Source: Brachypterus glaber (taxonomy: Eukaryota; Arthropoda; Insecta; Coleoptera; Kateretidae). Taken from it: a stretch of DNA of 64,000 bases. A program made the translations under genes and the position numbers. How positions within the stretch are numbered: position 1 is the first letter of the stretch; the number at the start of each line of letters is the position of its first letter. Location of the stretch: assembly GCA_958510825.1 (NCBI GenBank), contig OY294052.1, positions 6,097,816-6,161,815 on the forward strand. The letters run 5' to 3'. Of the stretch, positions 51,057 through 52,569 are shown piece by piece. The notes below the pieces were generated by a model. It did no database searches and was not told the origin of the DNA. It saw only the letters and a program-made list of their open reading frames with translations.

Positions 51057-51075
51057 GTAACTTAACCTTCACCTC

Positions 51076-51132
51076 TTGGTACTGAAGAGGGCCAGCAGCC
51101 CGAAACTGTCAGTCTACCAATATCTCTCTGTA
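51076..51132 (+). ncRNA. Hammerhead, family A, lacking the distal helix I strand
   Basis: TTGGTA 51076-51081, CTGAAGA 51082-51088, GGGC/GCCC 51089-51101, GAA 51102-51104, ACT/AGT and C51114 are intact. The insertion starts just after the distal strand, so tertiary loop contacts would be lost. Confidence 0.75.
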
Positions 51133-51414
51133 CGATGATTAGAAAATAGATTGATGGAATAATAAATTAATATTTTTATAATTTTGTTTAAAATTAAAAA
51201 TTTCTGTCCTTACTAATTTTACGTCTAACCACCCGTTAGTGGTACTATGTGCTTGAGACACACAAGTCTTCAACTTGCTACCATTCAAAGTCTCCAGATA
51301 AGGAGAGGTATGAGTACTTGTCTACATCTAGAAATAGATGGCGCACAAGTCTACATCAATCTAATGGCTATATTCCTTTTGCGAGTAAAGTCTAAAAACG
51401 TTTTCTTAATCAGT

Positions 51415-51487
51415 GTGCAGAGTTGACTCTTGGTACTGAAGAGGGCCAGCAGCCCGAAACTGTCAGTCTACCAATATCTCTCTGTAC
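51415..51487 (+). ncRNA. Hammerhead ribozyme, family A, intact
   Basis: GTGCAGAG 51415-51422 pairs with CTCTGTAC 51480-51487. TTGGTA 51430-51435 pairs with TACCAA 51469-51474. Core CTGAAGA is at 51436-51442, helix II GGGC 51443-51446 with GCCC 51452-51455, GAA 51456-51458, helix III ACT/AGT, cleavage after C51468. No deviation from consensus. Confidence 0.9.
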
Positions 51488-51768
51488 GATGATTAGAAAA
51501 TAGATTGATGGAATAATAAATTAATATTTTTATAATTTTGTTTAAAATTAAAAATTTCTGTCCTTACTAATTTTACGTCTAACCACCCGTTAGTGGTACT
51601 ATGTGCTTGAGACACACAAGTCTTCAACTTGCTACCATTCAAAGTCTCCAGATAAGGAGAGGTATGAGTAGTTGTCTACATCTAGAAATAGATGGCGCAC
51701 AAGTCTACATCAATCTAATGGCTATATTCCTTTTGCGAGTAAAGTCTAAAAACGTTTTCTTAATCAGC

Positions 51769-51841
51769 GTGCAGAGTTGACTCTTGGTACTGAAGAGGGC
51801 CAGCAGCCCGAAACTGTCAATCTACCAATATCTCTCTGTAC
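51769..51841 (+). ncRNA. Hammerhead, family A, helix III mutated
   Basis: Identical to its neighbour except AGT is AAT before C51822, which breaks one pair of the 3-bp helix III. Confidence 0.8.
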
Positions 51842-52122
51842 GATGATTAGAAAATAGATTGATGGAATAATAAATTAATATTTTTATAATTTTGTTTAAA
51901 ATTAAAAATTTCTGTCCTTACTAATTTTACGTCTAACCACCCGTTAGTGGTACTATGTGCTTGAGACACACAAGTCTTCAACTTGCTACCATTCAAAGTC
52001 TCCAGATAAGGAGAGGTATGAGTAGTTGTCTACATCTAGAAATAGATGGCGCACAAGTCTACATCAATCTAATGGCTATATTCCTTTTGCGAGTAAAGTC
52101 TAAAAACGTTTTCTTAATCAGC

Positions 52123-52195
52123 GTGCAGAGTTGACTCTTGGTACTGAAGAGGGCCAGCAGCCCGAAACTGTCAGTCTACCAATATCTCTCTGTAC
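52123..52195 (+). ncRNA. Hammerhead ribozyme, family A, intact
   Basis: Same as 51415-51487 at twice the 354-bp interval, cleavage after C52176. All core bases are consensus. Confidence 0.9.
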
Positions 52196-52569
52196 GATGA
52201 TTAGAAAATAGATTGATGGAATAATAAATTAATATTTTTATAATTTTGTTTAAAATTAAAAATTTCTGTCCTTATTAACCTTCACCTATTCGATTCAGAT
52301 ATTGAATCGCAAAAATACTTTATCCCTAAAATAACAGTTACTTATACTGATAATCCATCGATTTAGTATACACTTAAAGAAGAATTCTTATCACCTGCAC
52401 ACATTATCAGAAAATACCATAGCCTGTAAAACTAATCTACATTTTGTGCATCAAAAGATTATATATTTTTGTTAAAAATTGTGCTATTTTTTCTTGTATT
52501 AATCATAAAAAATCCAATAATTTTTGGTATTTAGGTATAACATATTTGAAAACTTATACCATAATAGTA

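Follow-up and report, generated by a model that had tools for sequence, protein, structure and literature searches.

Animal retrozymes were defined by Cervera and de la Peña in 2020 (PMC7229834; this and all other published sources are cited here from excerpts of their text). In that account, non-LTR retrozymes are tandem arrays of non-coding units with RNAs of ~170-400 nt, a low GC content, a type I hammerhead ribozyme and target site duplications (TSDs) longer than 4 bp, and the enzyme that moves them is sought among LINEs or Penelope-like elements (PLEs), with PLEs as a strong candidate. PLEs are likewise named as likely candidates for retrozyme mobilisation in PMC7761336. Two described systems lie close to the elements reported below: HHR_Amex1 of newt and axolotl, in whose hammerhead helix III is a single pair capped by a palindromic loop of four bases (PMC7229834), and pDo500 of Dolichopoda, an insect satellite of ~500-bp units in which a hammerhead processes multimers, and for which no insertion ends are described in the excerpt of PMC2837043.

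The PLEs themselves have been studied with purified enzyme from Anolis, which starts reverse transcription at two adjacent internal sites of its RNA, mostly 111-118 nt into the open reading frame, with the hammerhead cut at +26; the 30-40 nt between the start sites constitute the 'tail' of genomic copies, and the enzyme cuts and extends both target strands, with no difference in start site between the strands in vitro (PMC11167929). In rotifers, PLEs form head-to-head pseudo-LTRs, one of which carries a tail, within TSDs of 8-10 bp (PMC3846280). At the level of titles and abstract openings, we found no report of PLE-type ends for retrozymes, and the excerpts of PMC8490949 and PMC12910113 hold nothing further on insertion ends.

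Here we have analysed a stretch of 64,000 nt from the beetle Brachypterus glaber (contig OY294052.1, positions 6,097,816 to 6,161,815; hereafter, the window), in which an initial annotation had described tandem 354-bp units carrying a type I hammerhead core and had identified them as a retrozyme family. Both statements hold. At 51073-52278, TRF returned a period of 354, 3.4 copies and 99% matches, and the order of the hammerhead elements could be read directly as TTGGTA-CTGAAGA-GGGC..GCCC-GAA-ACU(GUC)AGU-C-TACCAA. In this family, which we call retrozyme A, the outer part of helix I (GTGCAGAG/CTCTGTAC) is paired across an internal loop, helix II is GGGC/GCCC with the loop CAGCA, and helix III consists of 3 bp with a GUC triloop. 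Position H17 falls at 51114, 51468, 51822 and 52176 in the four copies of this array (L3), so the predicted cut sites lie exactly one monomer (354 nt) apart, as had been claimed, and the limits annotated for the array coincide exactly with an insert bounded by TSDs (Table 1). The GC content is 0.356, the longest open stretch in the arrays is 81 aa (stop to stop, low-complexity frames dropped), and no open reading frame for a reverse transcriptase with GIY-YIG was found in the units of A or of the second family, B, described below. With their small, apparently non-coding tandem units, type I hammerheads, low GC content and TSDs of more than 4 bp, and with a circle predicted to be stable, the family A elements resemble the non-LTR retrozymes of PMC7229834, and retrozyme A is an apparently non-coding retrotransposon of that kind.

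Table 1. Coordinates of the ribozyme-bearing elements in the window, with their duplications and hammerhead copies (end distances are in nt past the predicted ribozyme cut)
Feature	Position	Strand	Remarks
Retrozyme A, L1, head-to-head	397..1161		minus part at the left, its short end (+52) at 397; plus part at the right, its long end (+95) at 1161
TSD of L1, TTTTGATTATCTG	384-396 and 1162-1174		
Retrozyme A, L2, head-to-head	5828..7713		short piece on the minus strand with its long end (+99) at 5828, followed by 5.2 monomers on the plus strand with the short end (+51) at 7713
TSD of L2, GCTAAAGACATTA	5815-5827 and 7714-7726		
Retrozyme B, 436-nt unit, head-to-head palindrome	10701..11536		the long end (+112) is at 10701 and the short end (+70) is at 11536
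TSD of B, 13 bp, ATATTATATTGTA	10688-10700 and 11537-11549		
Inverted B hammerhead copy, core to H17	10813..10843	-	
Minimal type I hammerhead of B	11418..11488	+	core 11436, H17 11466
Retrozyme A insertion, L3	51075..52274	+	3.4 direct 354-bp monomers; truncated on the 5' side within the ribozyme; 3' end at +98, the distal (long) start site
Left TSD of L3, 13 bp, TTAACCTTCACCT	51062..51074		
First L3 copy, hammerhead core to H17	51082..51114	+	5' strand of outer helix I missing
Complete type I hammerhead of L3, two-part helix I from GTGCAGAG to CTCTGTAC	51416..51487	+	predicted cut after C51468
Third L3 copy, core to H17	51790..51822	+	helix III weakened (AAU for AGU)
Fourth L3 copy, hammerhead core to H17	52144..52176	+	
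Right TSD of L3, 13 bp	52275..52287		
Retrozyme A, L4, old single fragment	63045..63338	+	no TSD found

Family A occupies four loci in the window, with ~12 monomer equivalents, in agreement with the 'about ten copies' of the initial annotation. Its statement that each monomer is complete stands in part: by our own tally there are 13 complete family A ribozyme regions in the window, of which 8 pass a hammerhead descriptor, the remainder being altered. Helix III is broken in one of the four L3 copies, the one cut at 51822, by a C.A mismatch that the descriptor still passes; the copy at 839 (minus strand) has an insertion in helix II; and in L2 four of the five complete monomers carry the core change A6 to C (CTGCAGA), in an array where two monomer subtypes are intermixed. 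Between the two strands of L1 there are four differences, and at two of these sites a comparison of two minus units showed them to agree. Outside the known loci, additional copies of the 3' tail of A were limited in the window to A/T-rich low-scoring matches. No empty site was found elsewhere in the window; besides the flanks of the loci themselves, one alignment crossed a junction, at 64% and inverted to B's own flank.

The evidence for the ribozyme itself comes from a descriptor with a shuffle control, which was substituted for Rfam. The descriptor gave 10 matches in the window, 8 of family A and 2 of family B. Over 100 Markov shuffles the average was 0.03 matches; only 3 of the shuffles contained any match and none one as strong as family A, and the hammerhead anatomy is far above chance. 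The check proposed in the initial annotation, a search with the Rfam covariance models, yielded no match at the gathering threshold in the whole window, and two shorter stretches (2.4 kb and 1.7 kb) gave no Rfam hammerhead at E<=10, so that Rfam, at either threshold, was not retained as proof of the family A hammerhead. When a 111-nt stretch was used, the RAGATH-1-hammerhead model aligned in register to family A at 19.1 bits (E 0.25; gathering threshold 56.3). Energy models commonly miss the hammerhead fold when they use nearest-neighbour terms without tertiary contacts. In the MFE fold of the isolated A ribozyme region (-28.1), CUGA of the core is paired with UCAG, and the hammerhead fold has an energy of -20.8. 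Compared with 60 shuffles, the circle predicted for one A unit is more stable than average (z -3.5). A hairpin at the start sites of reverse transcription was also considered and was dropped, the folds of three copies being in disagreement, and the exact hammerhead core occurred in 0 stretches of the viral and prokaryote collections. Transcripts of retrozyme A are predicted to cleave themselves.

The window contains a second ribozyme element, retrozyme B. Its unit length of 436 nt is given by a 32-bp piece that recurs at that spacing and by genome copies that succeed each other at ~436 bp, and a first look at the genome gave 1135 candidate places. With one type I hammerhead in each unit, the 354 bp of A and the 436 bp of B both lie within the retrozyme range of ~150-450 bp. 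The helix III of B is a single pair with a palindromic UCGA loop, which suggests that the ribozyme acts as a dimer; in this respect B can be likened, by description, to HHR_Amex1 (PMC7229834), from which it differs in its 436-nt unit and its head-to-head ends of PLE type. Family A can be likened, again by description, to the insect satellite pDo500 with its larger units (PMC2837043). The Rfam model Hammerhead_HH9 scored 28.4 bits on B (E 1.6e-5 in a 166-base search), under the gathering threshold of 52. When the regions downstream of the cuts were compared (51469-51584 with 11467-11590), A and B proved similar from ~+29 to +90 (A) past the cut, a segment that spans the start sites of reverse transcription (2 of 300 shuffles were as good), and this shared region is perhaps what the enzyme recognises.

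Three other features of the window should be mentioned in their own right. A fragment of a non-LTR retrotransposon lies at 41896-42620, with an RNase H domain (E 2e-11) and a zf-RVT domain just under the cut-off. About 96 copies of the 8-bp repeat AGACGGAC fill 29881-30643, where several frames are open. An inverted repeat at 26805-27469, with 135-nt arms that are 96% complementary and TTAA at both outer ends, resembles a short element of piggyBac type. Among other long inverted repeats considered as possible PLE-type inserts, a 13-bp TSD was absent at the 5 that were checked.

The ends of the insertions carry the main finding. L1, L2 and L3 each lie between direct duplications of 13 bp, which differ from locus to locus, and the five ends of family A in the window lie at only two distances past the ribozyme cut, +51 and +52 on the one hand and +95, +98 and +99 on the other; five ends placed at random on a 354-nt circle would fall into two arcs of 9 nt with a probability of 0.001, and B shows the same arrangement at +70 and +112. 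This clustering suggested two fixed start sites and led to a genome-wide test. The assembly (648,179,424 bases) was searched with one A unit, and at least 177 monomer matches were obtained from the 39 places scored out of 548 candidates, which makes the earlier estimate of thousands of copies in the genome plausible. For A, 42 loci were compared (38 clusters from the genome together with the loci of the window), and for B 31 loci (30 of 38 listed clusters and the window copy). A TSD of 10 bp or more was present at 26 of the 42 A loci, with a length of exactly 13 bp in 13 cases, and absent at the other 16, as against 6 of 1722 mismatched pairs of left and right edges; for B, the corresponding figures are 24/31 and 12/930. 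All 50 TSDs of A and B differ from one another and no pair of loci has both flanks in common, so the copies represent separate insertion events; some single flanks of A and B loci share dispersed repeats.

Head-to-head insertions form the majority of those compared in A and B (29 of the 42 loci in A), and their ends obey a strict rule. In all 22 head-to-head A insertions with a TSD, one end at 46-54 is paired with another at 95-99, the left/right order being 11:11, and in all 23 such B insertions one end at 67-77 is paired with another at 111-120. A short end is thus combined with a long one in 45/45 head-to-head insertions with a TSD, whereas free site choice on each strand would produce 45 mixed pairs out of 45 with a chance of 2^-45. 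The four direct A insertions with a TSD used one site each, at 54, 55, 98 and 99. Another 11 head-to-head insertions (7 A, 4 B) have no TSD: judged by eye, 5 look short and long, 1 looks short and short, and 5 are unjudgeable. The A members of this group are L010, L015, L040 and L045 (short and long), L034 and L039 (unjudgeable) and L022, which looks short and short and is the single apparent exception to the rule; for B, L092 looks short and long, L087 is unjudgeable, and L106 and L107 have a long right end and a left end that runs beyond the fetched stretch. Family B is probably moved in the same way as family A.

The junctions also bear on the form of the template RNA. Since both starts are 3' of the cut, a linear unit ended by the ribozyme would yield no more than ~100 nt of copy. 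The strands of the insertions could be split in 42 of 48 cases for A (6 were unsplittable) and in 47 of 47 for B. The ribozyme cut is crossed by 38 of the 42 A strands and 46 of the 47 B strands (84/89), and 25 A and 22 B strands (47/89) are longer than one unit. There is no pile-up of 5' ends at the cut: within 6 nt of it lie 3/42 in A and 1/47 in B, where uniform placement would give 1.5 and 1.4. Since the strands run through the cut site, the template RNA was not ended at the ribozyme cut, and was either circular or uncut; a circle and an uncut multimer are expected to give identical junctions.

The same type of ends is found in PLEs resident in this genome. A search for GIY-YIG gave 31 matches among the 150 places scored out of 419 candidates, 30 of them given as loci. 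RVT_1 and GIY-YIG occurred together in 3 of 9 tested open reading frames, the longest of 610 aa (in one of the three, RVT_1 was under the curated cut-off), and five of the other six had one or the other. In two larger PLE fetches, direct repeats of ~1 kb flank the open reading frame, which is PLE-like; no TSD was found at these two. Of the 30 GIY-YIG loci, 13 share a conserved stretch that includes GAAACTAGTC. In the family comprising L063-L073, L077 and L078, it is hammerhead-like with a non-canonical core (CTTGARGAWG in most copies) that precedes GTTTA..TAAAC-GAAAC-TAGTC; the descriptor detected no canonical or near-canonical hammerhead in the resident PLEs, and the GAAAC..AGTC half with its non-canonical core was located by eye and pattern. 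Measured past this motif, 16 distinct outer ends (18 listed values, two of which are duplicates from overlapping loci) form two groups, 10 of them lying at +50 to +61 and 6 at +86 to +90. In each of the five inverted two-copy PLE loci, a short end is paired with a long one, so that, with the PLEs added, one start of each kind was used in 50/50 head-to-head events with a TSD. The duplications at the five PLE loci measure 12, 13, 17, 18 and 18 bp, of which the longer probably extend into the A/T-rich ends of the element. In a genome search with the PLE stretch, 38 of 41 matches ended at +83 to +95, a ranking by score that favours long ends. The start regions of A and B are alike, yet neither resembles that of the examined PLE family above chance level (101/300 and 286/300 shuffles were as good), and the partner of the retrozymes may therefore be another PLE family.

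Set beside the published systems, A and B combine features of two kinds of element. Like PLEs, they show head-to-head repeats, a 'tail' at one end and extension on both strands (PMC11167929, PMC3846280), as well as two internal starts of reverse transcription downstream of a hammerhead (PMC11167929). Unlike PLEs, they appear to have no protein gene, and the tail of the window copies measures 42-47 nt, compared with 30-40 nt between the PLE start sites; their TSDs of ~13 bp also differ from the 8-10 bp of rotifer PLEs (PMC3846280). From the non-LTR retrozymes, described as tandem arrays in the excerpt of PMC7229834, they differ in being mostly head-to-head with two fixed 3' ends. Hence, A and B resemble PLE products in action and are not themselves autonomous PLEs; they are members of a known retrozyme kind for which the junction evidence is new. 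Their ends agree with the 'tail' signature published for PLEs, and this agreement speaks for PLE machinery rather than LINEs. The pairing of one short with one long end in each insertion was not found stated in the excerpts of the PLE literature examined.

Based on these observations, we consider retrozyme A to be a non-autonomous non-LTR retrozyme, copied from a circular or uncut RNA from two fixed starts and most likely by a PLE enzyme, and we assign this reading a probability of roughly 0.84. Tandem A copies would be transcribed, the hammerheads would cut the transcript into 354-nt units, and these would be joined into circles. At a target whose two strands are nicked ~13 bp apart, the junctions show that reverse transcription begins internally, at either of two fixed sites, ~51 or ~97 nt past the cut in A (~70 or ~112 in B). 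In the majority of the insertions compared, both strands were extended, one from each site, and the copies meet head to head within a duplication of ~13 bp. The enzyme, with its reverse transcriptase and GIY-YIG domains, would most likely be that of a PLE, because a resident PLE family has the same two-site, one-per-strand ends.

The initial annotation had left the choice between a LINE and a Penelope-type enzyme; the Penelope-type half of that proposal is supported by the two fixed starts, their use once per strand and the match with the resident PLEs, and the LINE half is disfavoured. LINEs, too, produce 5' inversions and duplicate 10-16 bp of their targets, and target-primed reverse transcription with twin priming makes head-to-head inserts, in which a 3' end of the retrozyme RNA could have mimicked a LINE tail. 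The 15-bp TSDs of Nematostella repeats have been compared to those of LINEs (PMC4918200), and a LINE fragment is present in the window. Such an origin is nevertheless improbable, since both starts are fixed, one of each is used in 45/45 insertions with a TSD, the copies often overlap, and the resident PLE family has the same pattern of ends. In twin priming, by comparison, the second start is unfixed and one RNA is divided between two cDNAs. It could further be argued that A is an ordinary satellite, spread and lengthened by unequal exchange or by extrachromosomal circular DNA, with the hammerhead as a relic; the mixed monomer subtypes of L2 and its four broken cores in five are what exchange or conversion could produce. 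We regard this as very improbable: insertions with matching TSDs and fixed ends are dispersed over different sites, which largely refutes it, and the core is intact in 109 of 116 recognisable ribozyme regions from the 42 A loci, a proportion biased upward by a pattern that presupposes the frame and by the choice of the loci that matched best.

More weight should be given to the view that integration proceeds as we propose and that the template is an uncut linear multimer, the ribozyme having no role in the movement. Mutation of the hammerhead did not affect insertion by the Anolis PLE (PMC11167929), the junctions would be the same as for a circle, and the broken core shared by the L2 monomers indicates that a non-cleaving RNA may have served as template there. 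Most ribozymes of the family are intact, however, which would be needless if the RNA were used uncut, and other animal retrozymes accumulate as circles (PMC7229834). We therefore hold the uncut template to be unlikely, if not negligibly so.

A more specific version of the PLE-mediated reading can be put forward tentatively, at slightly under even odds: Penelope-type integration may be an obligately asymmetric double reaction, in which each start site of the RNA is used once, on one target strand each, and which is parasitised by ribozyme circles. A paired enzyme would sit on one RNA with one proximal and one distal site, and on a circle the two polymerases would chase each other round, which would give tandem arrays on both head-to-head arms. 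The use of one site per strand agrees with a single enzyme pair acting on one RNA. On the question of one RNA or two per insertion, sequence divergence in A is 1.07% within a strand, 1.27% between opposite strands and 1.87% between loci. The two strands of one insertion are mutual closest relatives in 1 of 14 cases in A (3 ties) and 0 of 22 in B (4 ties), and this rarity, in a test that is biased by pristine copies, would weigh against a single RNA per insertion, as would the four differences between the strands of L1. By analogy, the Anolis result in vitro, with no difference in start site between the strands, would also speak against a one-per-strand rule.

In summary, the junctions of A and B provide a genomic answer to the questions of what moves retrozymes and from which form of their RNA, and the end rule (two fixed starts, one per strand, with copying through the cut) can be checked in any assembly that contains retrozymes. 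The use of one start of each kind sharpens the mechanism of PLE integration. If the asymmetric double reaction is true, retrozymes would be natural minimal templates that define what a PLE enzyme recognises.
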